Assembly: GCF_021730615.1 (NCBI RefSeq)
Contig: NZ_JAJLMN010000005.1
Location: forward strand, 1-52,104
DNA: 52,104 bases
Source: Lichenibacterium dinghuense
GTDB taxonomy: Bacteria; Pseudomonadota; Alphaproteobacteria; Rhizobiales; Beijerinckiaceae
Direction: 5' to 3'
Of the stretch, positions 1-52,104 are shown in pieces (position 1 is the stretch's first letter; every line of letters starts with the position of its first letter). Under the pieces are notes generated by a model, which was given only the letters and a program-made list of their open reading frames with translations, did no database searches and had not been told where the DNA came from. The translations under genes and the position numbers were made by a program.

Positions 1-328
1 CGTAGCCCTGCCCCTCGCTGTGCGACACGCCGCCATTGGCGTTGTCGATGATGCGGCCGTCCGGCGAAACGAAGCTCGCCCGATAGGCCGACCATTGCGA
101 CCTGAACCAGCTCTTGGCGGCCCGCCTCACGGCGCCGTCGCTGCCCCCTCCGGCCACCTCCGGGCCCGAGAGTCCTGCAAGATGCGTGAGCCCTGCTGTG
201 CTTGACGGAGCTGAGACGGTCGCAGTGCCTGGTCCGTTCGGCACCTCGACGGGGGCCGCCACGGCTGGCCCCGCGCCGAGGAGACTGCAGGACAACAGCA
301 GGGTCCGGAGACGAAGGGACGGGCTCAC
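1..328 (-). CDS. bcsZ: Cellulase BcsZ (GH8), N-terminal part
   Basis: N-terminal 109 codons of a GH8 endo-beta-1,4-glucanase, the periplasmic cellulase of cellulose synthase operons. A GTG start at 328 overlaps the bcsB stop (GTGA), which signals translational coupling. A signal peptide (LRLRTLLLSCSLLGAGPAVA) comes first, then a low-complexity linker, then the GH8 start with FVSPDGRIIDNANGG and SHSEGQGYG. The Glu of SEGQG is the family's general acid. The frame leaves position 1 after the first base of a Gly codon and continues exactly into the minus strand at 52104, giving YGLLLALAADDP, as expected for BcsZ. The gene is therefore whole on a circular molecule (392 aa). Identification is by motif recall. 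Confidence 0.93.
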   Translation of the reverse strand, partial: MSPSLRLRTLLLSCSLLGAGPAVAAPVEVPNGPGTATVSAPSSTAGLTHLAGLSGPEVAGGGSDGAVRRAAKSWFRSQWSAYRASFVSPDGRIIDNANGGVSHSEGQGY

Positions 329-2598
329 TTCGTCCCCGAGCGTCGGATCAGGGCATGGGTCGACAGACCCAGGATCGTCATCAGAAGCATGAGGAAGGCG
401 AGGCTCAGCTCGATGTGGTTCGACACGAGGCCGCCGAGGATCGGCCGGACGTCGGACAGGACGAGGTGGTCGGGCGCGACGTAGAGCACGCGCGACGGCT
501 GGATCGAGGCCATGCGGCCATCCGCGAGGTCGAGGCTGACGGCCTGCCCGTCGAGGTCGCCCCAGCGCCCGTCGGACACGAGGCGCGTGAGCCCGTCGCG
601 CAGCGTCGGCGCGTCGGCCGCGGTCACGACGAGCCACTGGGCGGAACTGGCCGTGAAGCGCGGCAGGCTGATCCCGCCCGCCCCGGCATCCTGCGGCCGC
701 GGGGCGAGGGCCGTCACCACGAGCGAGCGGGCCGACACGGGCACGGTGCGTGCGTCGCGGTCCACGCCGAAGAAGAAGCCCTGCCGCCGGAGTAGGCGCT
801 GCGCTTCTCCCGCCCAGTGACGGAGATCCCCGCTCCCTGCAGCCCTCACGACGCCCTGTCCGGCCGTGCTCTGATCGTCCTGCCCGGCCCCGTTCGTTTC
901 GACCTTCGACGCGGGTTCGGCGGCGTTCGCCATCTCGGCCCGAACCTCGCCGCGCAGGTCGGCCGGCAGCTCGTTGAAGGATGAGACGACGATGCCGGGC
1001 GCGGCGTCGGCGGCCGGCGCCCCGAGATGGACGGCGATCCTTTCGAGCCCGCGATGCTCGGCCGCACGGTTGGCCATCACGGTGAGCGCGGGGCCGACCG
1101 ACGCCGCGCCGGTCCCCGGCAGGTAAAGGTCGACCGCGGTGCCGTCCCCGCGGCGCCCGTCGGCCATGGCGCCTGGGATCTGCGGTATGGTGCCGAGGTG
1201 GGCGAAGCTCGGGAAGACGATCTCGGACGTCTTCCCGAGCGTGAACCTGACGTCGTTCGCCATGGCGGTGGTGTCGCATTGCCGGTCCGCCGCAGTCGAC
1301 GTGATGGCCTCGATCTCGACGGCGTTGCGGCCGGGGTGAAAGAAGCGCAGCGGCAGGTCGACGGTCTCGTGATCGAGCAGGCCGCCGCGGTCGGGCCCGA
1401 GGCGGAGCGACGACACAAGGGCGCCGTTGACGCGGAACACGAGGTCGCTGCCCGGGTCGAGGCTCGCAGCGTAGGATCCGTCGATCAGCACCTGGGCCTT
1501 GTCGTAGTTCGCAGGGTAGAAGTCGCTCGGCAGCACGACGTCGAGGGCGGAAGCGAAGCGACGCCCCGAGAAGCTCTCGGTCGGAAGGCCGAGCGACGCG
1601 AAGGAGCGGCGTTCTTCCCCGGCGACGATCATCTCGCCGGCCGGGCTCGGCGGGGGCAGGCCCGCGCCGCTCGCCGCGAAGGCCACGATCTGCCGGTCGA
1701 GGTCGGCGTCGTCGGTGCCCGACAGCGCCACGACGAGGCGGTCGGTGTTCGCGTCTCGGGCCAGGGTGACTCCGTCCTCGCGCCCCAGGATGCGCAGGTT
1801 GCGCGTCGCCTCGTCGCGGGTGCCCGCGGACTCAATCACGACGTCGAACCCGGCCCCGCGGCCGCCTCCTTCGTCCGTCTCCACGATCGGGCGCACCAGC
1901 CCCGCGCGCTGCACGAGTGCGTCGATGAAGAGCGAGGCCCGCTCGATCGCGCCGGCGTCTCCACTGTCCGGGATCCGCAGCGCGATCCGCGTCGTGCCGT
2001 CCGCGGCCAGAGCCTCGGCAGCGATGTCGCTGATCGAGCGCGATCCGCCCCAGGGAGCCGTTGGCACGACAAAGCCGGTCTGGGCCGGATCGAGCAGCGT
2101 CCAGAGTTCGTAGGTCGCTGCGACCGAGCAGTCGACGCGGTGCGCCATGGCGACCGACACCTCGACTGTGTTGAAGCCGGGGACGAGCACGCCGGGCGGG
2201 ATCGCCACGGGAGTGATGGACAGGCCCTCGGACGACCGCGCCGGCAGCGTCGCCAGGGCGCGCCCGTTAACCGACAGCTTCAGGGTCGACCGTTCCGGCA
2301 GGAGGGCGACGGCGTTCTTCAGCGCGAGCTGAAACACTTTTGCACGCTCCACCTCGCCGCGCCCGAGATAGATCGAGAAGGTGCGGTGGCTGAGTTCACC
2401 CCGGAAGGTCAGCTGCTCCTGCCCGGCCGGCAGGTGCTTCAAGGCCAGCGCGGGGGCGGGCGCAACGACGAGCGCGGGGGCGGGCGCAACGACGGCTGGG
2501 GCCGGGGTGGCGGGTGCCGCCATGGCCGTGGGAGTGCCGGCGAGGACGGCCGCGACGGCGGCCGACACTCTCGTCAGAGACTTGTGGGAGAGGATCAT
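325..2598 (-). CDS. bcsB: Cellulose synthase regulatory subunit BcsB
   Basis: 757-aa periplasmic, membrane-anchored partner of BcsA, which guides the emerging glucan across the periplasm. A signal peptide (to about residue 28, AAVLAGTPTAMAA) is followed by a Pro/Ala-rich linker with repeated APAPAL units. Two carbohydrate-binding/flavodoxin-like halves follow, with typical BcsB strings such as ERSTLKLSVNGRALATLP, VPGFNTVEVSV and FFHPGRNAVEIEA. A single C-terminal transmembrane helix (LSLAFLMLLMTILGLSTHAL) ends in RRSGTK; in the family this helix packs on BcsA. It begins 40 nt after bcsA and overlaps bcsZ by 4 bp. Length and order fit the family. The repeated linker is the only unusual part. 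Confidence 0.93.
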   Translation of the reverse strand: MILSHKSLTRVSAAVAAVLAGTPTAMAAPATPAPAVVAPAPALVVAPAPALALKHLPAGQEQLTFRGELSHRTFSIYLGRGEVERAKVFQLALKNAVALLPERSTLKLSVNGRALATLPARSSEGLSITPVAIPPGVLVPGFNTVEVSVAMAHRVDCSVAATYELWTLLDPAQTGFVVPTAPWGGSRSISDIAAEALAADGTTRIALRIPDSGDAGAIERASLFIDALVQRAGLVRPIVETDEGGGRGAGFDVVIESAGTRDEATRNLRILGREDGVTLARDANTDRLVVALSGTDDADLDRQIVAFAASGAGLPPPSPAGEMIVAGEERRSFASLGLPTESFSGRRFASALDVVLPSDFYPANYDKAQVLIDGSYAASLDPGSDLVFRVNGALVSSLRLGPDRGGLLDHETVDLPLRFFHPGRNAVEIEAITSTAADRQCDTTAMANDVRFTLGKTSEIVFPSFAHLGTIPQIPGAMADGRRGDGTAVDLYLPGTGAASVGPALTVMANRAAEHRGLERIAVHLGAPAADAAPGIVVSSFNELPADLRGEVRAEMANAAEPASKVETNGAGQDDQSTAGQGVVRAAGSGDLRHWAGEAQRLLRRQGFFFGVDRDARTVPVSARSLVVTALAPRPQDAGAGGISLPRFTASSAQWLVVTAADAPTLRDGLTRLVSDGRWGDLDGQAVSLDLADGRMASIQPSRVLYVAPDHLVLSDVRPILGGLVSNHIELSLAFLMLLMTILGLSTHALIRRSGTK

Positions 2599-2638
2599 GG
2601 TCGAGCTCGCTCGTGGTCGGGGGACGACGGCTCCGCCA

Positions 2639-4822
2639 TCAGATGGCGGAGGTTTCGGTCGGTGACGTCACGCGGGACGGGGCGGGCGTGGAGCGGCGTA
2701 GGAGAGCGTAGACGAAGCCCCGGACGATCTGCGATGCCCACCAGCGGGCGAACATCGCGGTTCCGCCGATCAGACCGAGGTGGCGATAGCCCGCACTTCG
2801 GTGGGCGTAGACGGGCGCAATGTCGGAGAACACGACTTTGGCGATGATGCGGAAGCGGTCGCTCTGCGAGCCGTAGAATTTGAGGCCGAAGCCGCGCCCC
2901 CCTTCGAGGGTCCGGCGGCCGGCCGCCACCACTGAGGTCTCGAGGACGGGACCGCCGTCGTCGTCGGCGAGGCGCAGCGTCGCCATCGTCCGCGCCGGCA
3001 GCTGGACCGCGCCGAGGGTGCGGACGCGCAGGCCGCCGAAGGACATGTCGTCAATGACGACCGGCACCTCCTCCTGGCCCACGACGAGGCTCGCCCGGAG
3101 CTGGCTCGCCACACGCGGCATGCTGCGCCGCTCGCGGCGCTCCGACACGGCCCCGAGGGCGATCCCGGTGAGGACCAGGTTCAGGCCGCTCCACACACCG
3201 ACGACGGTGATGAGATCGCGGGCGTTGGGCTCGTGCACGAACCTGTAGCCTAGGAAAGCCATGCTGGCCGCCACCAAACCGAAGATCGCGAAATAGGGCC
3301 AGGCGAAGGACGACAGCCGGTCCTCGTCGAGCGTCTGACCCTTGGCCGTGACGTTGAAGCTCGGGCGGCGGGGGGCCAGAAAGACGCTGATCACGGCCCG
3401 GAACAGCATGACGGACTGGATGTACTCGTAGAGGTCGGACGTCCAGGGCCAGCGGAATCGACCGAAAATGTAGCTCTGAATCAGCAGCGCAGAGAGCATA
3501 TATGTGACAGTATAGGACAGAAACTCCTGTCCGTTAGCGATATATATTTTCATTCCGAAGAATATAAACAGCATGGGGGCAAAGATGAACACCATCCGCG
3601 ACAGCGGGAACAGCCAGAACATGCTACTCGACAGATAGCAGAGGCGCTGTGCCAGGGTCAGGCCCTGCTTAAAGAGGGGGTTCTTGAGCAGAAGGATCTG
3701 CACCATGCCCTGGCACCACCGGGAGCGCTGGCCGATGAAGGATTCGAAAGTTTCAGGCTGGAGCCCCGCGATCATCGGCTTGTCGACGTAGAGGCTGTTC
3801 CAGCCGCGCGAATGGAGCTCGAGCGCGCTTTCGGCGTCTTCCGTGATCGACGAGCCGTGGAAGCCCCCGACCTGCTCCAGGGCGGCCCGGCGCAGCAGCG
3901 CAGCCGAACCGCAGAAGAAGGCCGCGTTCCACTTGTCGAGCCCCTTCTGCACGAGGCCGTAGAACATCTCGTTCTCCGCCGGCAGCCCGGCGGCGGCGAC
4001 GTTCTTCTCGATCGGGTCGGGGTTGAGAAAGAAGTGCGGGGTCTGGACGAGGAACAGCTTCTCGTCGGCGTCGAAGAACCCGACGGTTTCCGACAGGAAG
4101 TCCCGGGCGGGCACGTGATCGGCGTCGAACACGGCGACGATATCGCCGTCGCTGTGGGCCAAGCCGTTGTTGAGGTTGCCGGCCTTGGCGTGAGAGTTCT
4201 CCTCGCGGGCGAGATAGCGGACGCCGAGCTCGGCGCAGAGCGCCTGCATGTCGCGGCGTCGATTCGCGGCGCGCGCGGCCGCGACCGGATCGTCCGAGTT
4301 GAGCTTTTGGTCGGTGCCGCCGTCGTCGAGCAGGAAGACGTTGAGCTTGCCCGCTGGATAGGTCATCCGCTTCGCGGCCGCGAGGGTCGGCGCCACGATC
4401 TCGATGCTTTCGTTGTAGGACGGCACGAAGACGTCGACCGTCGGCGCCGCCTCGTCGGCGAGTTGCGGCGCCCTCGGGCGATCGATCGGATCGGCGACGG
4501 TGAACAGGCTCAGGAACATCATGGCGACGCAATAGAGTTCGGCCATGACGAGCACCGAGCCGGCGATGAAGTCCGCCGGGGACTGGAACGACGGGATTGT
4601 GCTCGACAAACGCCAGAAGACGTAGCGCAGGATGACGAAGGTGCCGAGACCCAGGAACACGGCCCGCCAGGGTCCACGCAGGTTAAGCACTTTCATCGCC
4701 ATCATTGCGACGAGCGCCGTAGCCGCGATGGCGAGTTGGGCTTCGACGCCGAGAGGCAGACCAGCAAGCAGCAGCATGACGCCACTCGACATGATCCAGA
4801 GCAACAGGATCGTCGCTTTCAT
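2639..4822 (-). CDS. bcsA: Cellulose synthase catalytic subunit BcsA (c-di-GMP activated)
   Basis: 727-aa inner-membrane GT2 synthase that polymerises UDP-glucose and exports cellulose. N-terminal membrane helices (about 1-110) precede the GT domain, which has all catalytic marks: LLDDGG (164-169), FDADH (232-236), ITEDAE (TED at 327-329) and QRSRW (365-369). More helices follow at about 385-480 and 505-560. The C-terminal PilZ domain shows an Arg-rich c-di-GMP motif (ERRERRSMPR) and DMSFGG, so activity should depend on c-di-GMP. The ATG at 4822 has an AAGGAT Shine-Dalgarno seven bases upstream. First gene of bcsA-bcsB-bcsZ-TPR. No bcsC porin or bcsQ-type gene lies beside it. Confidence 0.95.
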   Translation of the reverse strand: MKATILLLWIMSSGVMLLLAGLPLGVEAQLAIAATALVAMMAMKVLNLRGPWRAVFLGLGTFVILRYVFWRLSSTIPSFQSPADFIAGSVLVMAELYCVAMMFLSLFTVADPIDRPRAPQLADEAAPTVDVFVPSYNESIEIVAPTLAAAKRMTYPAGKLNVFLLDDGGTDQKLNSDDPVAAARAANRRRDMQALCAELGVRYLAREENSHAKAGNLNNGLAHSDGDIVAVFDADHVPARDFLSETVGFFDADEKLFLVQTPHFFLNPDPIEKNVAAAGLPAENEMFYGLVQKGLDKWNAAFFCGSAALLRRAALEQVGGFHGSSITEDAESALELHSRGWNSLYVDKPMIAGLQPETFESFIGQRSRWCQGMVQILLLKNPLFKQGLTLAQRLCYLSSSMFWLFPLSRMVFIFAPMLFIFFGMKIYIANGQEFLSYTVTYMLSALLIQSYIFGRFRWPWTSDLYEYIQSVMLFRAVISVFLAPRRPSFNVTAKGQTLDEDRLSSFAWPYFAIFGLVAASMAFLGYRFVHEPNARDLITVVGVWSGLNLVLTGIALGAVSERRERRSMPRVASQLRASLVVGQEEVPVVIDDMSFGGLRVRTLGAVQLPARTMATLRLADDDGGPVLETSVVAAGRRTLEGGRGFGLKFYGSQSDRFRIIAKVVFSDIAPVYAHRSAGYRHLGLIGGTAMFARWWASQIVRGFVYALLRRSTPAPSRVTSPTETSAI

Positions 4823-14227: not shown

Positions 14228-14854
14228 ATGGTGACCCATAGCCACGCATGCACGGGAGAGCGCGCCTTGAGCAATGTTCCATCCGCTTCGAGGACGACGG
14301 CGCTGCGCCCGGATCGCGGGATCATCTCGGTCATCGAGGGCGGAGCATCCGAGGCGGCGATGGGACAGGGACGGCTGGAATTGCTGGCCACGCCGGACCC
14401 CGCCGAACCGGTGGCATTGACGCCGCGCCACTACCAGACGGCGTTGAGCCTGCTCGAATGCGCCGCCAAGGCGCTGGAAATCCTGTACGACCGCCGCGAC
14501 CAGCTCGAAGCCTCAATCGAGGACGTGTCCATGCGGGCTGAGAGCGCCGTGGTGGCGGCTCAGGCCAAGGTGCTCGATTGGCAAAAGCTCGCGGCCGGCT
14601 TCAAGAACGACAATCAGGAGCTGGAGCGCCGTCTAGCCGTTATGCAGCAACGCGCCGAGCTGGCTGAAACACAGCTTGAAGCCGAGCGCGCCCGGGCCGA
14701 CGCCGCCGAACGGCAGGCCGCCGAGGCGCTAGGCCTGTCTCAGGGGTTGCATTCTAAGATCATCTCGGCCTTCGGCCGCGGCTCCACGGCCCACAGGGCG
14801 TTGCTGGTCGCTGTCGACGATGCCCCAGGGGCTTCCAAAGCTCCCAGCGCTTGA
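14228..14854 (+). CDS. Coiled-coil protein A
   Basis: 208-aa cytosolic protein. A short N-terminal segment is followed by RHYQTALSLLECAAKALEIL and a coiled coil of about 90 residues (AESAVVAAQAKVLDWQKL through ELERRLAVMQQRAELAETQL), then a short tail. A TTG at 14268 with GGGAGAG upstream is a possible alternative start. First of three adjacent coiled-coil genes that follow HD-GYP; no enzyme motif is visible. Likely a structural or scaffold protein (inference). Confidence 0.65.
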   Translation: MVTHSHACTGERALSNVPSASRTTALRPDRGIISVIEGGASEAAMGQGRLELLATPDPAEPVALTPRHYQTALSLLECAAKALEILYDRRDQLEASIEDVSMRAESAVVAAQAKVLDWQKLAAGFKNDNQELERRLAVMQQRAELAETQLEAERARADAAERQAAEALGLSQGLHSKIISAFGRGSTAHRALLVAVDDAPGASKAPSA

Positions 14855-14932
14855 GGGGTTCGAAGCCGTTCCATGCGGCCGACTTGGCCGGTGCGATGAA
14901 AGCCCGGTGACGGTGCAGAGGTGGTGAGGTCC

Positions 14933-16456
14933 ATGTTCGAAGGTTGGTCGCTGCTGAGGAGGCGCATATCCACCGGGGACGAAACCTCGCCGCGGACGCA
15001 TGCTTCCGAGTTGGGCAGGCCGGCCGGCCGCGTCGAACACGGCGAGCGGACGGAGCAGGTGGAGCGCGAGCCCGGCCCGGCGCAGCTCACCGGCGGCGGC
15101 CCGCTCGACACGCTCGGCCAGCAGAGCGAGAGCGTGCGTGACCGGGTGAACCGAATGGCGGAGCGCCTCGACGAGATGCGCTCGCTGTCGGCGGAGTTCG
15201 GGCTCATCATCGGCCCGCTCAACGACTTCGTCGACCAGCACGCGGCTTCCCGTGCCCGGCTGATGGAGGTCGAGGCGCTGCTCAGGCGCGAGCGCGAGCT
15301 TGGCTCGGCCGCGCGGGCGGAACTCGCCACTCTGCAAGTGACGAGCGCTAAGACTTTCGGCGATTTCCAGGACGCACTGGCGGCCCTCACCGAGCGCGAG
15401 GAGGTCCTGCGCCGCCAGGACGTGCAGGTGACAGAGTTGCGCATCCGCGCGGCCGACCTCAAGACCCACGCCGATAGCCTGGACGCGCGGCTGTTCGCAG
15501 AGGCCGACCGGAGCCGCGGGCTAGCCGAGGACAACGCCGCACTGCGCGGCGAGGTGGCGCTCGCCGAGGAAGCGAGCGCCACCTCCGACCGTGCCCTCGC
15601 TGAGACGCGCGAGACACTGGGGTTGACGGAGGCCGAGGTGTCGCGCCTGCAAGCGCTGGCAGAATCACAGTCTCTGAAAATTGCCGGCCTCAACCGCACG
15701 GTCGCGGATCTGGAACCCCAACTTCAGATGGCGCGCAGCACGGCAGCGCTGGTGCAAGGTAAATACGCGGTCGAACAAGCGGCCCGACAGAAAATCGAGG
15801 CGTCGCGCGACGCCGAGCGGGCCGCCCACGAGATGGAGCTCGCCTCTCAGGCGATGAAGATCGATGGGCTCAACGCGCACGTGGCCAACACCGACCGGCT
15901 GATCGCTCACCTGCGCGACCAGCTCCACGACAAGTCCGAGGCCCACCGCGCTTCCGAGAAGGCCTCGCGCGATGCCACCGCCGAGCGCCTGTCGCTGGAG
16001 CGGCGGCTCGACGCGGCACAGGAGGCGGCGGCCCGTGCCAACGCGCAGCTCGCCGAGGCACAGCGCGTGGGGACCGGGCTCGCCGACCGCGCCGACATGC
16101 TGGCCAAGGCGGTGGCCGCCAAAGACCAGGCACTCGACGCCGCCAACCGCAAGGCCGCGAACCTGCTCGATCGCATCGAGGGGCTGAACGCCCGCTTCGC
16201 GCTGGAACGCTCGGAGTTCGAGGCGACGCACCGGCGCACTATCGAAGAGCTGCAGAACGAGCGGGCCGAGCGCTCGCTGGCCCACGGCGCGCTCGACATA
16301 GCGCGCCGCAGCCGCACGGCGCTGCTTGCCCAATATACGGAGCTGAAGCGTCGCACCGGCGCGCCCGACCCGCGGCCGTCGGACGAGCCTCGCGACGAGG
16401 CCCGCGCGGTTGACAGCAACGTCATGGCGTTTGTGCCGCCCGACGCGAGCGCGTGA
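14933..16456 (+). CDS. Long coiled-coil protein B (intermediate-filament-like architecture)
   Basis: 507-aa protein that is almost entirely heptad-rich coiled coil from about residue 60 to 470, with a basic non-coiled N-terminus (FEGWSLLRRRISTGDE) and an acidic disordered tail. Head, long rod and tail resemble crescentin-type bacterial filament proteins, but I cannot establish homology. ATG at 14933 follows a GGTGAGG; GTGs upstream (14921) are possible. It lies in the same direction as coiled-coil genes A and C, and downstream of PilZ-like/HD-GYP, so a role in organising surface polysaccharide or cell shape is a guess. Confidence 0.7.
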   Translation: MFEGWSLLRRRISTGDETSPRTHASELGRPAGRVEHGERTEQVEREPGPAQLTGGGPLDTLGQQSESVRDRVNRMAERLDEMRSLSAEFGLIIGPLNDFVDQHAASRARLMEVEALLRRERELGSAARAELATLQVTSAKTFGDFQDALAALTEREEVLRRQDVQVTELRIRAADLKTHADSLDARLFAEADRSRGLAEDNAALRGEVALAEEASATSDRALAETRETLGLTEAEVSRLQALAESQSLKIAGLNRTVADLEPQLQMARSTAALVQGKYAVEQAARQKIEASRDAERAAHEMELASQAMKIDGLNAHVANTDRLIAHLRDQLHDKSEAHRASEKASRDATAERLSLERRLDAAQEAAARANAQLAEAQRVGTGLADRADMLAKAVAAKDQALDAANRKAANLLDRIEGLNARFALERSEFEATHRRTIEELQNERAERSLAHGALDIARRSRTALLAQYTELKRRTGAPDPRPSDEPRDEARAVDSNVMAFVPPDASA

Positions 16457-16522
16457 CGATCGATCAATCCCGGCCGCGTGTTGATGGCCGAGTCCCTAAC
16501 CGAGTTCCCCGAGGAGAGTGCG

Positions 16523-16975
16523 ATGGTGGAAGCCGCGATGCAGAGCCGTGACGAGGCCGAGTCGACCGCCCTGGCTGTGGTGCCGACGACGCCCGCGGGT
16601 GGGCCGGGCGCGGCGTCCGACCGGGTCGTAGAGTTTTCGGCCTCGATGAAGGACCGGCTGCTCCAGAGCGCCGCAGACGGCACGAATGCGGGCAAGCGCG
16701 ATTGGTCCTCCGCGCTCGACCTCGTCAGCGAAGCCTTCGAGGCTATCCGTATGGCGGACGAACGGGCCGCGGCCTCCGAGGAATACCAAGCCGAGCTGGT
16801 CCAGCGCCATGCCGACCACGTGAAGGTACTGGAGACCCGCATCGCCGCTGCCGAGAAGCGTGCCGACGCGGCCGAGAACCGCGCCAAGACGGCCGAGGGT
16901 TGGCTGTCGAAGTTCCACGACACGATCATCGACGAGTTTCAGCGCACCTTCGCATCACGTGGTGGGGCACGCTGA
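16523..16975 (+). CDS. Coiled-coil protein C
   Basis: 150-aa protein. N-terminal variable segment; SALDLVSEAFEAIRMADERA begins a helix that continues as a coiled coil (RIAAAEKRADAAENRAKTAE) and ends WLSKFHDTIIDEFQRTF. ATG at 16523 has GAGGAG seven bases upstream; ATGs at 16478/16484 are alternatives. Third of the coiled-coil trio, 66 nt after protein B. A terminator hairpin follows, so the transcript probably ends here. Confidence 0.65.
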   Translation: MVEAAMQSRDEAESTALAVVPTTPAGGPGAASDRVVEFSASMKDRLLQSAADGTNAGKRDWSSALDLVSEAFEAIRMADERAAASEEYQAELVQRHADHVKVLETRIAAAEKRADAAENRAKTAEGWLSKFHDTIIDEFQRTFASRGGAR

Positions 16976-18927: not shown

Positions 18928-20466
18928 ATGCCGGCCAGGAGAGAGCTGACGATGCGACAGATCCGACACATGCTCCGGCTCGCCCGCGACGGGGTGAGCG
19001 CCCGCGAGATCGGCCGAACGCTCGGCATCGCGCGGTCCACCGTCCAGGACAACCTCGCCCGTGCGTCAGCGGCGGGCTTGGCTTGGCCGATCGATGAAGA
19101 GATCACCGACGCCGTCCTCGAACAGCGGCTGTTCGACCGCGTCGGCGTGAAGCAGGGCGTCAGACGACGCGTCGAGCCAGACTGGCCGTCGATGGTGCGC
19201 GAGATGCGCAGGCCCGGCGTCAACCTGATGGTTCTCTGGGAAGAGTATCGTGTATCTGAGCCCGGCGGCTACGGTTACTCGCGCTTCTGTGATCTTTACA
19301 GGGAGTTCGAACGCCGTGTCACGCCGGTGATGCGCCAACACCATGCCGCCGGCGACAAGGTGTTCGTCGACTATTCCGGCAAGCGCGTGCCCATCGTCGA
19401 TCCCGCCACCGGCGTGGTGAGACAGGCCGAGATCTTCGTGGCGGTGCTGGGCGCCTCCAACCTCACCTACGCCGAGGCGACGTGGACCCAGGCGCTGCCG
19501 GACTGGATCGGCGCCCACGTGCGCCTGTTCGACTTTCTGGGCGGCGTGCCGCGCCTGGTGGTGCCCGACAACCTCAAGAGCGGGATCAACAAGGCGTCCT
19601 TCTACGATCCGGAGATCAATCGCTCCTACGGCACCATGGCCGAGCACTACGGCATCGGCGTGCTGCCGGCCCGGCCGAGGAAGCCGCGCGACAAGGCCAA
19701 GGTGGAGAACGGCGTCCGCTTCGCCCAGAGCTACATCCTGGGACGCCTGCGGGCCCAGACGTTCTTCTCGCTGGCCGAGTGCAACGCCGCCATCGCGGCC
19801 ATGGTGGAGCGCATCAACGCCCACCCCATGCGCCGCCTCGGCACCACGCGCCGGGCGCTGTTCGAGGCCGTGGAGCGGGCCGCCCTGCTACCCCTGCCGT
19901 CGGCACCCTACGTCTTTGCCGAGTGGCGGCTGGCACGGGTCAACCTCGACTACCACGTCGAGGCTGCCGGCTTCCTGTACTCGGTGCCCCATGCGCTGAT
20001 CCGCGAGCAGGTGGACGTGCGCCTGACGGAGCGCACCGTGGAGGTGTTCCACCGCGGCCAGCGCGTCGCCGCCCACGACCGGCGTTATGGCGGCGCCCGG
20101 CACGGCACCGACGTCGAGCACATGCCGAGCGCTCACCGGCGCTACGCGGAATGGACGCCGGCCCGCTTCGAGCGCTGGGGCCGGGAGATCGGCCCCGAAA
20201 CCGAGGGCCTCGTCATCGCCATCCTGCGCGGGCGTCCCCATCCCGAGCAGGGCTTCCGCACCTGCCTGGGCGTGCTGCGCCTGTTTCGCGGCCTCGCCCC
20301 AGCTCGGGCCGAGGCCATCTCCGCCCGGGCCACGGCCATCGGTGCGCTCACCTACAAGAGCATCGCCTCCATCATTGCCAACAACCTCGACCGAAAGTCT
20401 CGAATAACAGAAACGACGAAGATCATCGATCATCCGAACCTGCGCGGCGCAGGCTACTTCCACTGA
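18928..20466 (+). CDS. istA: IS21 transposase IstA
   Basis: 512-aa transposase. N-terminal HTH (MRQIRHMLRLARDGVSAREI then GRTLGIARSTVQDNL), a DDE integrase core with KVFVDYSGKRVPI, LVVPDNLKSGI and KPRDKAKVENGV (acidic triad), and a C-terminal Mu-transposase-like domain. GAGGAG precedes the ATG. Followed 14 nt later by istB. Confidence 0.95.
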   Translation: MPARRELTMRQIRHMLRLARDGVSAREIGRTLGIARSTVQDNLARASAAGLAWPIDEEITDAVLEQRLFDRVGVKQGVRRRVEPDWPSMVREMRRPGVNLMVLWEEYRVSEPGGYGYSRFCDLYREFERRVTPVMRQHHAAGDKVFVDYSGKRVPIVDPATGVVRQAEIFVAVLGASNLTYAEATWTQALPDWIGAHVRLFDFLGGVPRLVVPDNLKSGINKASFYDPEINRSYGTMAEHYGIGVLPARPRKPRDKAKVENGVRFAQSYILGRLRAQTFFSLAECNAAIAAMVERINAHPMRRLGTTRRALFEAVERAALLPLPSAPYVFAEWRLARVNLDYHVEAAGFLYSVPHALIREQVDVRLTERTVEVFHRGQRVAAHDRRYGGARHGTDVEHMPSAHRRYAEWTPARFERWGREIGPETEGLVIAILRGRPHPEQGFRTCLGVLRLFRGLAPARAEAISARATAIGALTYKSIASIIANNLDRKSRITETTKIIDHPNLRGAGYFH

Positions 20467-20480
20467 TAGGAGACTTGACG

Positions 20481-21224
20481 ATGCTTGCTCATCCCACACT
20501 CGAACTTCTGCACGGCCTCGGCCTGCACGGCATGGCGCAGGGCTACAAGACCCTGGACGGGAACCCGGAAGCGCAGGCGCTGACGCACGCCGAGTGGCTC
20601 GGCATCATCCTGGAGCACGAGAAGACCCTGCGCGAGCAGAAGCGCTTCGAAACCCGCGCCCGCGCCGCCCACCTGCGCCATCCGGCCAGCGTCGAGGATG
20701 TCGACTACCGCGCCCATCGCGGCCTCGACCGTGCCCTGTTCCTCAAGCTGTCCGGCTGCGACTGGATCCGAAGCCGGCGCAACCTGGTGATCACCGGGCC
20801 GTGCGGTGTCGGCAAAAGCTGGCTCGCCTGCGCGCTCGGCCAGAAGGCCTGCCGGGAGGACCTGTCGGTCCTGTACTACCGTGTGCCGCGCCTGTTCGCG
20901 GCGCTCGGTCTGGCGCGCGGCGACGGCCGCTATGCCAAACTGCTCAAGCAGCTCGCCCGCGCCAGGCTGCTGATCCTCGACGATTGGGGCCCTGAGCCCC
21001 TCAGCGCCGAGCAGGCGCGCGACCTTCTGGAGATCGTGGAGGACCGCTACGACGCCGGCTCGGTGCTGATCACCAGCCAGGTGCCGGTCGACCGCTGGTA
21101 CGAGATGATCGCCATCCCGACCCTGGCCGATGCCGTGCTGGACCGCCTGATCCACAACGCCTACCGGATCGCGTTGTCCGGCGACAGCCTGCGCAAGCAC
21201 CGCCCTGCCGACCAGCTGGCTTGA
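20481..21224 (+). CDS. istB: IS21 helper ATPase IstB
   Basis: 247-aa AAA+ ATPase that activates IstA and selects targets. Walker A is GPCGVGKSWLA, Walker B is RLLILDDWGPEPL, and SVLITSQVPVDRWYEMI follows as sensor region. Complete; it begins after a ...GGAGACTTGACG leader. Confidence 0.95.
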   Translation: MLAHPTLELLHGLGLHGMAQGYKTLDGNPEAQALTHAEWLGIILEHEKTLREQKRFETRARAAHLRHPASVEDVDYRAHRGLDRALFLKLSGCDWIRSRRNLVITGPCGVGKSWLACALGQKACREDLSVLYYRVPRLFAALGLARGDGRYAKLLKQLARARLLILDDWGPEPLSAEQARDLLEIVEDRYDAGSVLITSQVPVDRWYEMIAIPTLADAVLDRLIHNAYRIALSGDSLRKHRPADQLA

Positions 21225-28595: not shown

Positions 28596-28671
28596 CCGCA
28601 CAGATCAGGCGACGCAACTCGCCCTTGGCGCCGCACCTTGCCTACAACCTGCACCGCACTACAACCTGCCG

Positions 28672-28869
28672 ATGCCGACAGCCCACGCCATCGCCGCGGC
28701 CAGGACCGCGCTCGAAACCCTGCTGAGCCTCCGCAAGGTCACCGGCAAGACGGTCGCTGGGAAGCCGCTCAACAACGCGATCGACGTCGCCAGCGGGGAG
28801 GCGCGACAGATCTTGGACCAGCCTGCGCGGAGGCCGGAGCACGTCGCGAGGCGGTTCGGGGAGGGGTGA
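28672..28869 (+). CDS. Hypothetical protein, 65 aa
   Basis: HAIAAARTALETLLSLRKV and KPLNNAIDVASGEARQIL suggest a small helical protein. No recognised family; start at 28672 has no strong ribosome binding site. Confidence 0.4.
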   Translation: MPTAHAIAAARTALETLLSLRKVTGKTVAGKPLNNAIDVASGEARQILDQPARRPEHVARRFGEG

Positions 28870-30140: not shown

Positions 30141-30422
30141 CTACGCCGCGGTGAGGTGCGGGCCGATGACCTTGGCGAGCTCGAACATGGTGATCCGCTC
30201 GGCACCGAAGATCGGCCGCAGCGTGGCGTCCGCGATGATCCCGCGCTTGTCGGCCGGGTCCTGCAGGTCGTGCTTGCGGATGTAGTCCCACAGCTTCGAC
30301 ACCACGGCGGTGCGGGCCAGCGGCTCGGCGCCGACCACGGCCGCCAGCTCGGGCGAGGGCGTCAGCGGCTTCGCCAGCGCGCCGGCGGTGCGGGGCTTCT
30401 TCGGGGCGACGGTGCGGGACAT
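30141..30422 (-). CDS. SWIB/MDM2 domain protein
   Basis: 93-aa protein: basic N-terminus (SRTVAPKKPRTAGALAKPLT) then a single SWIB domain: PELAAVVGAEPLARTAVVSK, LWDYIRKHDLQDPADKRGII, FELAKVIGPHL. SWIB was named in eukaryotic chromatin remodellers; stand-alone SWIB proteins occur in chlamydiae and several proteobacteria with unclear function. ATG at 30422. Convergent with the par operon and downstream of an HTH gene. Confidence 0.88.
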   Translation of the reverse strand: MSRTVAPKKPRTAGALAKPLTPSPELAAVVGAEPLARTAVVSKLWDYIRKHDLQDPADKRGIIADATLRPIFGAERITMFELAKVIGPHLTAA

Positions 30423-39348: not shown

Positions 39349-39798
39349 ATGTCTATACCTGAGCATATGCACGTGTCGGAGGGGCCGCAGCGCTTCGACG
39401 TGTTCACCGGCGGAGGGCGCCGACGCCGTTTCACCGCGGCCGAAAAGGCGGCGATCGTCGACGAAAGCTACGCGGACGGGACCTCGGTCTGCGGGGTCGC
39501 GCGCCGTCACGGCCTGACGTCCCAGCAGCTGTTCGGCTGGCGCCGACTGGCTCGCCTCGGGCCATCGTCGTCTCTGCCCGCCGAGCGACCGCTGTTCGTG
39601 CCCGTCATCGTGGCCTCCGAGCCCGAGGCGCCGCCCCGTGATGAGGCGCCGACTGGCCCGAAGCCGCGCAGGCGCCGGAAGCGGATCGAGGAGGCGAGCA
39701 TCGAGCTGGAGATCGCCGGCGTCGTGGTGCGGGTGGGCCGGGATGCCGACGCCGGCGCGATCGCGGCGGTGATCGGCGCGCTCAGGGCCGGCACGTGA
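39349..39798 (+). CDS. tnpA: IS66 TnpA (accessory HTH protein)
   Basis: 149 aa. RRRRFTAAEKAAIVDESYAD, GTSVCGVARRHGLTSQQLFG, WRRLA is the IS66 OrfA HTH; basic middle; ELEIAGVVVRVGRDADAGAI at the end. AGGAGG precedes the ATG. Overlaps tnpB by 4 bp. Confidence 0.93.
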   Translation: MSIPEHMHVSEGPQRFDVFTGGGRRRRFTAAEKAAIVDESYADGTSVCGVARRHGLTSQQLFGWRRLARLGPSSSLPAERPLFVPVIVASEPEAPPRDEAPTGPKPRRRRKRIEEASIELEIAGVVVRVGRDADAGAIAAVIGALRAGT

Positions 39799-40151
39799 TC
39801 GGTCCCGCGGGCGCGGTACGCGTCATGCTGGCCACCCGGCCGGTGGACTTCCGCAAGGGCATGGACGGCCTCGCCATGCTGGTGCGCGAACAGCTGGGCG
39901 CCGACCCGTTCTGCGGCACGGTGTTCGCCTTCCGCTCGAAACGGGCGGACCGGCTCAAGCTCCTGTTCTTCGACGGCACTGGCGTGGTGCTGGTGGCGAA
40001 AAGGCTGGAGGCGGGCGCGTTCCGCTGGCCGAAGCCGGGCGATGGTGCCGTCCGGCTGACCGCCGCCGAGATGGCGGCGCTCGTCGACGGGCTCGACTGG
40101 CGGCGCGTGCACGTGCCGCGTGAGGTGGCCGTGCCGCGGCTGGCCGGTTAG
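39795..40151 (+). CDS. tnpB: IS66 TnpB (accessory protein)
   Basis: 118 aa. AVRVMLATRPVDFRKGMDGL, AFRSKRADRLKLLFFDGTGV, RLEAGAFRWPKP match IS66 OrfB (PF05717) over its whole length. GTG start overlapping the tnpA stop. Confidence 0.95.
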   Translation: MIGPAGAVRVMLATRPVDFRKGMDGLAMLVREQLGADPFCGTVFAFRSKRADRLKLLFFDGTGVVLVAKRLEAGAFRWPKPGDGAVRLTAAEMAALVDGLDWRRVHVPREVAVPRLAG

Positions 40152-40205
40152 GCGAGAACAGGCGAAGGCGTCGCGCGCGGGGCTCGGGTGTGATCTGATC
40201 CCTCT

Positions 40206-41738
40206 GTGATCCCGAGCGAGCCCGCCCCCTCCGACGACCCCGCCGCCCTGCAGGCCATGCTGGCGGCCGAGCGGGCCGAGAACGAGCGGCTGCGCAAGAT
40301 CATCCGCGAACTCCAGCGCCACCGCTTCGGCCGCCGGGCGGAGAGCCTGCCGTTCGATCAGCTCCAACTCGGGCTGGAGGAGGCCGAGCAGGCCGAGGCG
40401 GCCGACGAGGCCAGCGCCGAGGCGGCGGCTCCGACCGTGCGCGCCGCCCGCGTCGCCAAGCGCCGGGCCAACCGGGGCTCGCTGCCGGCCCACCTGCCGC
40501 GGATCGACACCGTGGTGGACATCGCCGACGACAGCTGCCCGTGCTGCTCGGCCCCGCTGCATCGCATCGGCGAGGACGTGTCCGAGCGGCTCGACGTGGT
40601 GCCGGCGCAGTTCCGCGTGCTGGTGGTGCGCCGGCCGAAATACGCCTGCCGGGCCTGCACGGACGGCGTGGTCCAGGCGCCCGCACCGGCGCGGCTGATC
40701 GAGGGCGGGCTGCCCACCGACGCCACCGTGGCGCAGGTGCTCGCGTCGAAATACGCGGACCACCTGCCGCTGTACCGGCAGGCGCAGATCTTCGCCCGCC
40801 AGGGTGTCCTCCTGGACCGCTCCACCCTGGCCGACTGGGTGGGGCGCGCGGCGCTGCTGCTCGAACCCGTGCACGGGCGGCTGCTCGACCACCTTCGGGC
40901 GTCGACGAAGCTCTTCGCCGACGAGACGACCGCGCCGGTGCTCGACCCCGGCCGTGGGCGCACGAAGACCGGGCAGCTGTGGGCCTATGCGCGCGACGAT
41001 CGCCCCTGGGGCGGCGCCGATCCGCCGGCGGTGGCCTACGTCTACGCCCCCGACCGCAAGGCCGAGCGGCCCATGGCACATCTCGCCGGCTTCGCCGGCG
41101 TGCTGCAGGTGGACGGGTATGAGGGCTACCGCGCCCTGACGAAGGGCGACCGGGTGAAGCTCGCCTTCTGTTGGGCCCATGTGCGGCGCGGGTTCATCGA
41201 CCTCGCCGCCAAGGGCGCGTCGCCGATCGCCGCCGAGGTGCTCGAGCGCATCGCGGCGCTGTACCGGATCGAGGACGAGATCGCCGGGCTGCCGGCCGAG
41301 GCCCGCCGCCAGGCGCGCGGGGAGCGCAGCCGGCCGCTGCTGACGGCGCTCGACCTGTTCCTGCGCGAAAAGCTGGCCCTCCTCAGCCAGAAGAGCACGC
41401 TCGCCGTGGCGATCCGCTACGCGACCTCGCGCTGGGACGGGCTGACGCTCTACGTGGACGACGGCCGGGTAGAGATGGACTCCAACACGGTGGAGCGCTC
41501 GATCCGGCCCCTCGCCCTCACCCGCAAGAACGCCCTCTTCGCCGGTTCCGATCGGGGCGGCCAGACCTGGGCGGTGATCGCCTCGCTGGTAGAAACCTGC
41601 AAGCTGAATGGCGTGGACCCACAAGCCTACCTCTGCGACGTGATCAGCCGCATCGTGGGTGGCCACCCCCAGAGCCGGCTCGACGAGCTCCTGCCCTGGG
41701 CCTACCCGACCATCCCGGGGCTCGAGGCGGCCGCCTGA
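40206..41738 (+). CDS. tnpC: IS66 transposase TnpC
   Basis: 510 aa. N-terminal leucine-zipper-like coil (ERAENERLRKIIRELQRHRF), Zn-binding CPCCSAPLHRIGEDVSERLD, then the DDE domain with LFADETTAPVLDPGRGRTKT, VDGYEGYRAL and MDSNTVERSIRPLALTRKNA. Full length and uninterrupted. GTG start. Confidence 0.95.
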   Translation: MIPSEPAPSDDPAALQAMLAAERAENERLRKIIRELQRHRFGRRAESLPFDQLQLGLEEAEQAEAADEASAEAAAPTVRAARVAKRRANRGSLPAHLPRIDTVVDIADDSCPCCSAPLHRIGEDVSERLDVVPAQFRVLVVRRPKYACRACTDGVVQAPAPARLIEGGLPTDATVAQVLASKYADHLPLYRQAQIFARQGVLLDRSTLADWVGRAALLLEPVHGRLLDHLRASTKLFADETTAPVLDPGRGRTKTGQLWAYARDDRPWGGADPPAVAYVYAPDRKAERPMAHLAGFAGVLQVDGYEGYRALTKGDRVKLAFCWAHVRRGFIDLAAKGASPIAAEVLERIAALYRIEDEIAGLPAEARRQARGERSRPLLTALDLFLREKLALLSQKSTLAVAIRYATSRWDGLTLYVDDGRVEMDSNTVERSIRPLALTRKNALFAGSDRGGQTWAVIASLVETCKLNGVDPQAYLCDVISRIVGGHPQSRLDELLPWAYPTIPGLEAAA

Positions 41739-48379: not shown

Positions 48380-48955
48380 TCAGGATGGAGTGGCTGAAAC
48401 CGGCACCCTGGCGAGTTCCCGGTAGAGCGTCGCTGGATGGCACTTCAGGATGACGCGCGCCACCTCGCGTGCGCTCTTACCCTCGTCGATCAGCCGCCGC
48501 CCGAGTGAGACCTGCTCCGGCGTCAGCGCCGCGGGACGCCCGAAGCGCACGCCGCGATCTTGAGCGGCCTTCCGTCCCGAGCTGGTCCGCTCGCCAATCA
48601 AGGAACGCTCGAACTCGGCAATGCCGGCGAACACGGTCAGTACCATGCGGCCAGCGGGCGAGGTGGTGTCGGCCCAGGGCTCGGCGATTGAGCGCAATCC
48701 AGCTCCGGCATTCTGGAGCCGCTCGGCGATGTCGAGGAGGTCGCGGGTCGAGCGCGCCAGACGGTCGAGGCGGGTCACCACGACCACATCACCATCCCGG
48801 AGCTGCTCCAGCATGCGGGCGAGCTCCGGCCGGTCGCGCTTGGCCCCCGACGCCTTCTCCTCGAAGGTGCGCTTGCACCCTGCATCCTTCAACGCCGCGC
48901 GCTGGAGCGTGAGGTCCTGGTCATCGGTCGAGACGCGGGCGTAGCCGGTCAGCAT
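48380..48955 (-). CDS. Resolvase (Tn3-type serine recombinase) 3
   Basis: 191 aa. MLTGYARVSTDDQDLTLQRA with catalytic Ser in RVS; GDVVVVTRLDRLARSTRDLL; GIAEFERSLIGERTSSGRKA; C-terminal HTH LGRRLIDEGKSAREVARVIL, KCHPATLYREL. Full-length Tn3-type resolvase, only distantly related to recombinases 1 and 2. The upstream region 48992-49110 has the look of its res site. No Tn3 transposase gene is present. ATG at 48955; an in-frame upstream ATG (49000) is less likely. Confidence 0.92.
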   Translation of the reverse strand: MLTGYARVSTDDQDLTLQRAALKDAGCKRTFEEKASGAKRDRPELARMLEQLRDGDVVVVTRLDRLARSTRDLLDIAERLQNAGAGLRSIAEPWADTTSPAGRMVLTVFAGIAEFERSLIGERTSSGRKAAQDRGVRFGRPAALTPEQVSLGRRLIDEGKSAREVARVILKCHPATLYRELARVPVSATPS

Positions 48956-49373: not shown

Positions 49374-51263
49374 TCAGCGCAGATGCGGTGGGGTATAGGC
49401 CTGCTGGATCACGCGGAGGCCCTCCATCCGCTCTTGGGAGTAGCTGCCGGCGTCGAGCCCGGAGAACACCTGCTTGGCCCCTTCCCAGTCTCCCTTGTTG
49501 TACATGGCCCAGCCCCGGACGACAGTCAGCCCGCGCGGCTCGGCGCGTTTCTGCCGGCGCTGCTCGAGCAGCGCGACGGCCTGGTCGTACTGGCCCGCGT
49601 TGTAGACCTTGACGATGTCGTCGGCGCTGCGGTCCCATCCGTCGCCCTTCGGCGCTGCCCGGCGGGCACTCGCCCTCGCGACCGCAACGCGCTTGCCGGA
49701 TCCGCGGTGCGCCTGCACGGCGACGCGCGCAGCCGGGTGCGAGGCCTGTCGTGGTCGCATCAGGCTTTCGAGCTCCGCGATGCTGGGGTAGGTCTCGCGG
49801 TATTGTTCGATGCGCGCGGCGTAGTCGCGGTCGTGGCGCAAGCGGTGGGCCGACACGACGAGCCCGATCGCGGCCGACTCGTTCGCCTGCCAGTCCGCGG
49901 ACTTGCGGAACCAGCCCTCGGCCTTGGCGACGTCGCCGCTCTTGTAGCTATACCAGCCGAGCGCCTGGGCGCCATCGGACGATTTCAGGGTGTCCGTGGC
50001 CGCCATAGCGGCGCTCACCTCGTCGCGGGTGAGGGGCGTGGCCTTCGGGTCCGACATGGCGAGCGCCGCGACCTCCACCATCAGCTTACGATTGAGTGGA
50101 TCGAGATCCGCATACTGGAAGGCCAGCCTGGTCGCCTCGGGGATCTGGCCCGCGTCGCGCAGCGCGAGCACGAGCCCCTCGGCGGCCTTGGCGTCAGGGC
50201 CGGTCGCCAGCGCGGCGCGGAACCACCGGATCGCGCCGTCGTAATCCTTGCGCGACCGGGCGTACCAGCCGAGCAGCGCGGCATCCGCCCGGCCGCCGGG
50301 GCTCGCCGCGCTGGCCGTCACGGCCGCGATCTCGTCCGGGGTCGGCTGAGTCGGCACGGTGCCGGCGGTCGCCGCGCCGATCGTCTTGCGCATGAGGTCG
50401 AGCCGCACCTGATCGAATTCGCCGCGCCCGTCGGCCGAGCGACGCCCGAGTGCGATGAGACCATCGAGGCCCCCCGGCGCGGTCAGCAGCAGGCTCGCCT
50501 TCTGCACCGTCGCGAGCCGAACGTCGGCCGCCGCGCAGGTGGTGAGGACGTAGCGGTAGGCCGCGACCGCGCGGGCCTCATCGCCCGTGCGCACCAAGGC
50601 CTCTGCGGTCCGCCACAGGGCATCGACATCGTCGCAGGTGAGAAGCGACGGGTTCGTCGACGCCGTCGCGATCACGTCGGTCCACCGATGCCCGTCCGAC
50701 GCCGCGATCACCGTCGCGCGGGCCTCGCCGAGCGCGATCTTGTTGGCGAGGTCGCTCGTCGGCTGCCACTCCGGCTTGTCGCGGCGGATGTCGTCCATCT
50801 TCGCCCGCAGTGCGGCGAAGTCGCGGCGGGCGAGAAGATCCCACAGCGGCTGCTCGTCGATACCGCTCCCGACTTCCGAGAACAGGTCCTGCGGGGGCTC
50901 CCAATCGGGGTGCTTCGAGCGGATCAGCCTGATCTCGGCCGACACCCGCCCGAGGTCGTTCTGCGCCGCAAAATAGCGCAGGGCGTCGAGGTCGATCGCA
51001 TCCTTGCGGGGCGCCGTCGCCTCGGTGGGTGCGGCGGGTTTCGGTGCGTCGAGGACGAAGGGGGCGACGGCCGGTGCCGATGTCGGTGCGACCCTGGTCG
51101 GGACGGCAGCGCGGAGCGGCTTCGGCTCGGCCGGACGGGCGTCCTCGAAGATCGGGGCGGGCGCGGCGTCGTTCCCGACGGAGGCGTAGCCCGCCTCCGT
51201 GCGCACCACGACCGTCAGGGCGACCGCTGCACAGGTCAGGAGGAGGGTCGTCTTCACAGGCAT
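49374..51263 (-). CDS. Periplasmic TPR protein of the cellulose operon
   Basis: 629 aa. Signal-like N-terminus (KTTLLLTCAAVALTVVVRTE), Pro/Ala-rich linker (about 35-80), then helical TPR-type repeats to the end (ALLGWYARSRKDYDGAIRWF, ALGWYSYKSGDVAKAEGWFR, VVRGWAMYNKGDWEGAKQVF). A basic Ala/Arg segment (about 510-545) interrupts the array. It occupies the place of BcsC but lacks the outer-membrane beta-barrel, so another porin or a different export route must exist. Likely a periplasmic scaffold of the synthase. Overlaps bcsZ by 10 bp; last gene of the operon. Confidence 0.8.
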   Translation of the reverse strand: MPVKTTLLLTCAAVALTVVVRTEAGYASVGNDAAPAPIFEDARPAEPKPLRAAVPTRVAPTSAPAVAPFVLDAPKPAAPTEATAPRKDAIDLDALRYFAAQNDLGRVSAEIRLIRSKHPDWEPPQDLFSEVGSGIDEQPLWDLLARRDFAALRAKMDDIRRDKPEWQPTSDLANKIALGEARATVIAASDGHRWTDVIATASTNPSLLTCDDVDALWRTAEALVRTGDEARAVAAYRYVLTTCAAADVRLATVQKASLLLTAPGGLDGLIALGRRSADGRGEFDQVRLDLMRKTIGAATAGTVPTQPTPDEIAAVTASAASPGGRADAALLGWYARSRKDYDGAIRWFRAALATGPDAKAAEGLVLALRDAGQIPEATRLAFQYADLDPLNRKLMVEVAALAMSDPKATPLTRDEVSAAMAATDTLKSSDGAQALGWYSYKSGDVAKAEGWFRKSADWQANESAAIGLVVSAHRLRHDRDYAARIEQYRETYPSIAELESLMRPRQASHPAARVAVQAHRGSGKRVAVARASARRAAPKGDGWDRSADDIVKVYNAGQYDQAVALLEQRRQKRAEPRGLTVVRGWAMYNKGDWEGAKQVFSGLDAGSYSQERMEGLRVIQQAYTPPHLR

Positions 51264-52104
51264 CGCGGGTACCTTTCCTGGATGATGGAGAGGGACAGGA
51301 GGCGGAGCGTTTCGGGATAGTAGAGGGTGTCACGCGCCGTCATGAGATCGGGCGGCACCGTTTCGCCCCGCGCCGCGCAGCGGGCGAGGGCGAAGATCGC
51401 GCGGTACCCGACGCCGCCCATCGACGAGCCCGAGGCCCCCGTCGACACTTCGATCACGCTCGGATCGGAGGCCGGGGAGAAGCGGGCGAAGGCGGACAGC
51501 AGGGGCGGGGGCGCGTCACCATCCCAGGCGAGGTAGAGCGGGATCCGGATCGCGTCGTAGCCGAAGGTTGCCGGGAAGCCGTGCGCGGGCGCCGGCATCG
51601 CGCCGGCGACCGACACCCAGTCGGCCGGCAGGCCGAGCGGCCCGAACCGAGCGACGTCGAGGAGCTTGAAGCCGCTCGCGCGCAGCCCACCCCAGGGGCT
51701 TTTCGGCCACAGGGCCGCGAAGTCGCGGAACGCCGGAAAGATCCAGTAGGACAGGTTGACGACCGGACCGCCGGGCTGGTCCGCGGGACCGAAGCCCGCG
51801 GCGGCGGGCAGGAGGACCGGTCCGAGCGCGTTCGGACGAACGGCCGCAGCCGCGACGGCATCGGCGATGCGGCGCGCTTCGACCCCGTAGTCCGCACGGT
51901 TGAAACGTTGCGCCGCCTCGGCCAGCGCCCAGGCGATGAGGACGTCGCCGTCCGTGGCGTCGTTCCGGTCAGCGACGACGGCCCGCCCCGGCTCCCACTT
52001 CCAGGCGAACAGGCCGTCGTGGCGAACCCCGAGATGATCCGAGGTCCAGCGCCAGATCAGCGCGAAGCAGTCCGGATCGTCGGCCGCGAGCGCGAGGAGG
52101 AGGC
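51254..52104 (-). CDS. bcsZ: Cellulase BcsZ (GH8), C-terminal part
   Basis: Remaining 283 residues of the gene that starts at 328, entering from position 52104. Continues the GH8 (alpha/alpha)6 barrel: ALIWRWTSDHL, DRNDATDGDVLIAWALAEAA, FGYDAIRIPLYLAWDG (the Asp equals the proposed catalytic base of BcsZ), and ASGSSMGGVGYRAIFAL. 328 + 851 bp = 393 codons exactly, so the window ends are contiguous. In the family BcsZ trims nascent cellulose in the periplasm and tunes biofilm formation. Confidence 0.92.
   Translation of the reverse strand, partial: LLLALAADDPDCFALIWRWTSDHLGVRHDGLFAWKWEPGRAVVADRNDATDGDVLIAWALAEAAQRFNRADYGVEARRIADAVAAAAVRPNALGPVLLPAAAGFGPADQPGGPVVNLSYWIFPAFRDFAALWPKSPWGGLRASGFKLLDVARFGPLGLPADWVSVAGAMPAPAHGFPATFGYDAIRIPLYLAWDGDAPPPLLSAFARFSPASDPSVIEVSTGASGSSMGGVGYRAIFALARCAARGETVPPDLMTARDTLYYPETLRLLSLSIIQERYPRCL

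Follow-up and report, generated by a model that had tools for sequence, protein, structure and literature searches.

In phage lambda, the origin lies inside the gene for the O initiator. Among plasmids of the Rhodobacterales, the RepQ, RepY and RepW types are linked, in the accessible text of the study that describes them, to the IncQ-like, RepL and Rep_1 families and were tested by cloning (PMC9025767), and the authors of the report on plasmid pMR68 state, in the portion of that report available, that they were unable to identify its origin (PMC3737084). For cellulose synthesis, type III (IIIb) bcs operons follow the order bcsN-A-B-Z-K, as in Starkeya sp. N1B, according to the accessible sections of two papers (PMC6559018; PMC11470070). 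Here we analyzed the whole of contig C5 (NZ_JAJLMN010000005.1, positions 1-52104) of Lichenibacterium dinghuense, a stretch of 52,104 bp referred to below as the window, which carries a bcs operon that runs across its two ends. The best-supported reading of C5 is a complete circular plasmid, and we consider it very probable that this plasmid, of about 52.1 kb, combines a proposed winged-helix replication module, segregation by ParA and an RHH protein, and the bcs operon, probably with no capacity for self-transfer.

The genome that holds C5 comprises 6,106,602 bp in five contigs (C1, 5,860,510 bp; C2, 12,642 bp; C3, 22,905 bp; C4, 158,441 bp; C5, 52,104 bp) and has a completeness of 99.24%. 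An earlier sequence-only reading of the window had claimed that a GH8 cellulase gene crosses both ends in frame, and the joined ends do contain such a gene. On the minus strand, an open reading frame (ORF) of 393 codons, or 392 residues and a stop, runs from a GTG at 328 to base 1 and continues from 52104 to a stop at 51256-51254; the GTG is the start codon that we chose, and it overlaps the stop codon of bcsB. The join splits codon 110, with residues 1-109 encoded by 328-2 and residues 111-392 by 52102-51257, and this codon sits within the motif SEGQGYG. The residues that the sequence-only reading had placed across the join, SEGQGYGLLLALAADDP, are borne out as claimed. When the joined 392-residue product was compared with GH8/BcsZ proteins, the Pfam family GH8 (PF01270) matched residues 77-382 with an E-value of 2.2e-50, and a search of PDB gave 30 sequences at E <= 0.001, with 6vc5_A (E 6e-55, residues 77-378) as the best solved relative; both alignments span the join.

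We also examined whether relatives of BcsZ are continuous at the position of the join. Matches to the joined protein were found in 20 of the 60 genomes searched, its own genome included, one of them only weak (G030, E 7e-4). The 14 alignment rows around residue 110 collapse to 10 distinct places, nine in relatives and one in the C1 copy of the same genome, and all ten are continuous at that residue, with a one-residue gap a few residues ahead of the join in one of them. At the DNA level, blastn against contig C10 of the same-genus genome G004 placed window positions 51272-52104 at 3163-4007 and positions 1-114 at 4008-4121, the latter with 83% identity, and the local alignment with this relative has no gap from 13 bases before the join to 96 bases after it. 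Removing bases or inserting random bases at the join (1, 2, 3, 6, 9 or 30) lowered the alignment score in 12 of 12 trials, from 207 for the intact join to 200-202 at one base, which is a slight drop, and to 135-148 at thirty bases. Relative to this same-genus sequence, the DNA runs on across the C5 ends at base level, with zero bases lost or added. The gene order that results, bcsA-bcsB-bcsZ-TPR, is common to the same-genus genomes G004 and G005 and to C1, and the position of the TPR protein gene is kept in two relatives. The sequence-only reading had named a different BcsZ upstream in the assembly as a finding that would speak against it; the BcsZ of C1 is a separate gene, 50-51% identical, and not the missing continuation.

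Frame length plays no part in this argument. In a control, joining the ends of C1, C3 and C4 likewise gave open frames, of 925, 602 and 447 codons; because G+C-rich DNA yields such frames cheaply, their length proves little, and homology across the join carries the argument instead. C2 also closes in frame: its ends join within a 125-residue RHH protein that follows parA, at codon 58, and the RHH domain recognized by Pfam (residues 68-106, E 4.7e-7) lies beyond the join. Several observations weigh against closure. An exact terminal overlap of at least 10 bases was found at none of the five contigs, which makes such overlap uninformative as a test of circularity and means that any assembly overlap at the C5 ends was trimmed beforehand. 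The C4 join also contains an open frame of 234 residues with no Pfam match, and the C3 join is known from its 602-codon frame. C1 is not visibly closed, as a helicase-like frame runs from its first bases and has no continuation at its end, and the assembly is thus not proven closed throughout. Taken together, the base-exact join, the gene order, the closure of C2 and the partition genes described below support the proposal of the sequence-only reading that the window is a complete 52,104-bp circular replicon, a circle that the assembler would have opened at an arbitrary point inside bcsZ.

Our own codon-usage gene caller called 60 genes in the window, and 59 of them, including the joined BcsZ and omitting a 40-residue ORF at 31135-31257, were scanned with Pfam; no named Rep family was found among these 59, and RepC (PF03428) occurs within the genome only on C4, with none on C5. 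The sequence-only reading had mentioned a candidate Rep but left the ORF unspecified. Our candidate is a winged-helix protein of 249 residues (Table 1), whose gene has seven matches in its own genome, all on C2, C3, C4 and C5 and none on C1; the C3 copy is 80-83% identical, and some of the C4 copies are fragments. The gene was found in 10 of the 60 genomes searched, the own genome included and two only weakly, and relatives occur on 67 plasmid records, among them 42 from Methylobacterium and 7 from Methylorubrum. Twelve of these records were read whole: every one contains a ParA-type gene (annotated as ParA family in seven, and as AAA ATPase, Soj or iron-sulfur carrier in five), and no replication protein is annotated in any of them. 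ParA-type genes were also present in nine of ten further records read in part, the exception being a stretch that ends at the record end, and a replicon type is shown for 0 of these 22 records. A 13,969-bp plasmid with the winged-helix gene has no named replication gene among its 17 annotated coding sequences. In a comparison of the genes shared by 14 plasmids, the winged-helix gene was present in all 14, partly by selection, and ParA-type genes came next, in 13. Profile searches with the protein matched phrog_15967 and, weakly, the 'replication initiation O-like' family phrog_391 (E 2.1e-6), and weak matches of the latter kind recurred in all three family members scanned.

The replication role is argued from association, and a number of points count against it. 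The plasmids were picked for carrying the winged-helix gene, which builds in its universal presence, although the association with ParA and the missing annotated Rep are free of this selection effect. The PLSDB gene tables are incomplete, and some of the plasmid records contain helicase-like or DUF927 genes of unknown role. Pfam returned weak GntR/MarR-type matches only, and NCBIfam returned nothing for four members of the family. The structural model is a winged helix of modest confidence (predicted local distance difference test [pLDDT] score 65.8; predicted template modeling [pTM] score 0.46), and a fold search of PDB gave generic winged helices, none at E <= 0.001. These matches and this fold, together with record labels that read GntR regulator, helix-turn-helix or hypothetical, would suit a regulator of transcription, acting on partition or other genes, with the true initiator or origin elsewhere on the plasmid and the conserved blocks 5' of the gene as possible operators. 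We regard this alternative, which concerns the replication part only, as rather unlikely in view of the presence of the gene in 14 of 14 plasmids compared with ParA-type genes in 13 (partly by selection), the recurrent O-like matches, the 13,969-bp plasmid without a named replication gene and a DNA box at the 3' end of the gene that is kept where it is non-coding.

This G-rich box, a candidate origin element, lies just past the stop codon of the candidate rep gene, and in an alignment of five close relatives the block past the stop codon is conserved and its flanks diverge. Under a strict definition of at most 3 mismatches, five rep-bearing contigs (C3, C5, G001 C1, G001 C137 and G002 C8) have one copy of the box each, the rest of the eight genomes searched has none, and the reversed control gave zero matches. 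A looser version extends to other plasmids. In 6 of the 13 other plasmids compared (five Methylobacteriaceae and one Methylocystis), the gene itself contains an exact related 16-mer, 138-156 bases ahead of the gene end. At up to 4 mismatches to this 16-mer, the box is present on the strand of the gene in 27 of 30 rep 3' regions and in 9 of 419 random windows, and on the opposite strand in 1 of the 30; the 16-mer was picked from six of these regions, without which the count is 21 of 24, and some of the 30 are near-duplicates. In 13 of the 30 regions, an exact 16-mer box is part of the 3' end of the coding sequence, and in the window and four close relatives the box is past the stop codon. Where it is inside the gene, the box is mostly read as Gly-Gly-Gly-Cys-Lys, and its glycine codons (33 GGG, 17 GGA and 2 GGT, compared with 185 GGG, 79 GGA, 215 GGC and 65 GGT outside the box) show a bias that is partly built in, as the counted copies were chosen by likeness to a DNA motif. 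The location of the box beyond the stop codon in the clade of the window is a stronger sign of conservation as DNA than the codon bias.

Other observations are less favorable to this placement of the origin. The strict box is absent from the gene-carrying genomes G003, G013 and G015, from the gene-bearing contigs C2 and C4 and from 12 whole plasmids, and what C2 and those plasmids have in common is the looser box only. Conservation is also seen in shorter blocks upstream of the winged-helix gene, which are another potential site of the origin. One of these blocks, some 260 bp upstream of the gene (Table 1), could be a further cis element and is largely preserved in the five close relatives aligned for the downstream box. 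No array of iterons or tandem repeats was seen near rep or parA. We propose for C5 a previously unrecognized initiator and origin, in which the winged-helix protein would act on or near the G-rich box just past its own gene. With moderate confidence, we extend this proposal to a widespread, unlabelled replicon type of the Hyphomicrobiales, defined by a small winged-helix initiator that is paired with ParA and has its origin at a G-rich box within the 3' part of its own gene or just downstream of it.

Segregation of C5 would depend on ParA and its RHH partner, a pair that the sequence-only reading had noted and that Pfam confirms (Table 1), aided by the BrnT/BrnA pair and by serine resolvases, one of which (Table 1) could possibly serve in multimer resolution. 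As for centromere-like repeats, only short two-copy repeats and inverted repeats were found 5' of parA. Among the genes scanned with Pfam there was no relaxase or mating-pair gene, and C5 is for this reason probably unable to transfer itself. The co-resident contigs C3 (8743-13682) and C5 (26068-32071) have a common backbone, in which Rep is 80-83%, the SWIB protein 99% and a small helix-turn-helix protein 95% identical. Between the ParA proteins of the two contigs, identity is only 34%, which would fit a divergence of partition that lets both plasmids coexist, and this difference between candidate initiators and ParA raises a question of compatibility.

The remaining explanations dispute that C5 is a plasmid at all. 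A chromosomal tandem duplication or collapsed repeat can be closed by assembly into a circular contig, and the joins are known here from assembled sequence, in a genome whose C1 is itself not visibly closed; however, a 3,000-base probe (C5 positions 1-3000) matched the 5.86-Mb C1 only in short and diverged pieces, the bcs operon of C1 is different and diverged, and C5 has its own partition genes along with a winged-helix gene seen on separate small replicons, and we consider such an artefact highly improbable. The three serine recombinases of C5 could suggest instead an integrating element, seen in its excised circular state, and no stable plasmid; we find this equally improbable, given the ParA/RHH partition genes, the backbone genes that C5 has in common with C3 and C4, and the zero tRNA genes that ARAGORN detected on C5. 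A circular plasmid is ordinary in kind; what appears to be new is the replicon type, apparently unlabelled in the databases searched.

Table 1. Features of the circular plasmid reading of contig C5, with coordinates in the window.
Feature	Position	Strand	Evidence or remark
bcsZ, 5' part	1..328	-	codons 1-109 and one base of codon 110; Pfam GH8 over joined product
bcsB	325..2598	-	Pfam BcsB, E 1.3e-27
bcsA with PilZ domain	2639..4822	-	Pfam glycosyltransferase 2 families, Cellulose_synt, PilZ
Three-gene block with crescentin-like coiled-coil protein (14933-16456)	14360..16975	+	Pfam Rod_CreS, 260 bits
IS21-type istA/istB	18952..21224	+	flanked by 23-bp repeats (18771-18853, 21279-21359)
brnT/brnA toxin-antitoxin pair beside rep	25128..25698	-	Pfam BrnT_toxin, BrnA_antitoxin
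Conserved G-rich DNA box, candidate origin element	25965..26006	-	just past candidate rep gene
Candidate replication initiator, winged-helix protein, 249 residues	26068..26817	-	matches on C2-C5, plasmid records, weak O-like profile
Block GCCAGTTTGACAC, second possible cis element	27076..27088	-	upstream of candidate rep gene
Small ORFs between rep and parA	27203..28869	+	those at 27203, 27424 and 28672 have C3 relatives, 80-90% identity
parA, partition ATPase	29147..29812	+	Pfam AAA_31/CbiA/MipZ; NF041546 160.6 bits, below its cut-off of 180
RHH protein, likely ParA partition partner	29809..30096	+	Pfam Antitox_RHH, E 3.4e-10; start overlaps parA stop
SWIB-domain protein	30141..30422	-	99% identical to C3 counterpart
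IS66-type transposon, three ORFs	39367..41738	+	Pfam
Serine resolvase	48380..48955	-	Pfam Resolvase, E 2e-44
TPR protein, BcsK-type	49374..51263	-	Pfam TPR matches only; start overlaps bcsZ stop
bcsZ, 3' part	51254..52104	-	two bases of codon 110, codons 111-392, stop

A closed circle lets the window be read as a whole gene set, in which a plasmid-borne cellulose operon stands beside partition and addiction genes in a relative of lichen-associated bacteria. By Pfam, this set comprises bcsA with PilZ, bcsB, bcsZ, the TPR protein, ParA, the RHH and SWIB proteins, BrnT/BrnA, an HWE kinase, a GGDEF protein, an HD-domain protein, a Crp-type regulator, a fasciclin protein, the crescentin-like protein, three resolvases and several transposases. 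PilZ domains bind cyclic di-GMP, and the type-III-like operon (bcsA-bcsB-bcsZ-TPR) would probably be switched on by this molecule at the PilZ domain of BcsA. The same plasmid also holds an HD-domain protein (12610-13998) and a GGDEF protein (43234-44139), which together with the PilZ-bearing BcsA form a possible self-contained cyclic di-GMP circuit for cellulose. A second, diverged bcs operon is present on C1 (3660000-3676000), in which BcsA is 51%, BcsB 31% and BcsZ 50-51% identical to the plasmid copy. We considered and dropped a classic BcsC for the chromosome, where a longer TPR frame has no barrel-domain match in Pfam. On C5, bcsA, bcsB and bcsZ lie in order and a BcsK-type TPR protein takes the place of a BcsC with an outer-membrane barrel, an assignment from TPR matches only that is weakened by the lack of a barrel match in the longer chromosomal frame too. 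The type III description, as given in the accessible sections of the two papers (PMC6559018; PMC11470070), fits this operon, which resembles type IIIb operons in having bcsA-bcsB-bcsZ followed by a TPR-only protein. It differs from them in its location on a 52-kb plasmid, and the name BcsN does not occur among the Pfam matches of the 59 scanned genes, in which no search was aimed at BcsN.

The cargo includes mobile elements and a block of possible chromosomal ancestry. Multiple 23-bp flanking repeats, as are expected for IS21 ends, border the istA/istB genes, and about 0.5 kb beyond this element the Rfam suhB/mmgR small RNA (RF00519) matches 21845-21924 with 46.9 bits (cut-off 41). A megablast search for close plasmid relatives, using two 25-kb queries that cover bases 1-50000, returned no record covering 80% of either query, and the best matches listed were mostly to transposases and recombinases. 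The crescentin-like protein is the only Rod_CreS family match in its own genome, and it had zero matches across the plasmid collection records. Its three-gene block was also found on a 189-kb contig of G001 and a 298-kb contig of G002, with 76-82% DNA identity; these contigs are candidate chromosomal sequences, and a transfer of the block from the chromosome to the plasmid is possible. No chromosomal site lacking the block was found, and the flanks in one relative map poorly to the L. dinghuense genome.

The candidate replication gene and origin are common to dozens of plasmids, mostly from Methylobacteriaceae, which could be typed and turned into vectors if the proposal is confirmed. If true, a winged-helix replicon type would explain the replication of plasmids without an annotated Rep, including pMR68, as far as the accessible part of its report describes it (PMC3737084). 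Among open-access literature, we found no title on a Lichenibacterium plasmid and none naming this replicon type, which is weak evidence of absence. Compared with repABC plasmids, C5 likewise has a ParA-type partition gene but differs in RepC, which in this genome is on C4. Like RepQ, RepY and RepW in the accessible text on those types, the C5 candidate came to light through a formerly unlabelled replication gene, and it differs from them in having no such Pfam match and in being known from sequence (PMC9025767). Its similarity to phage lambda O-type initiators is weak and consists of a winged-helix protein with weak O-like profile matches and a conserved box that lies within or next to the 3' portion of the gene, whereas near the C5 gene there is a single conserved box rather than a repeat array. 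The closest likeness is to the small circular plasmids of Methylobacterium, Methylorubrum and Methylocystis (p3META1, pMRAD07, pMRAD08, pMPOP01 and pSS37A-Re-6) and to p_unnamed2 of Lichenihabitans psoromatis, all of which have the same winged-helix gene and a ParA-type gene with no annotated Rep. C5 differs from these plasmids in its cargo and in the position of its box, which C5 and its four relatives carry past the stop codon and which, as the exact 16-mer, is in-gene in the 13 regions noted above.

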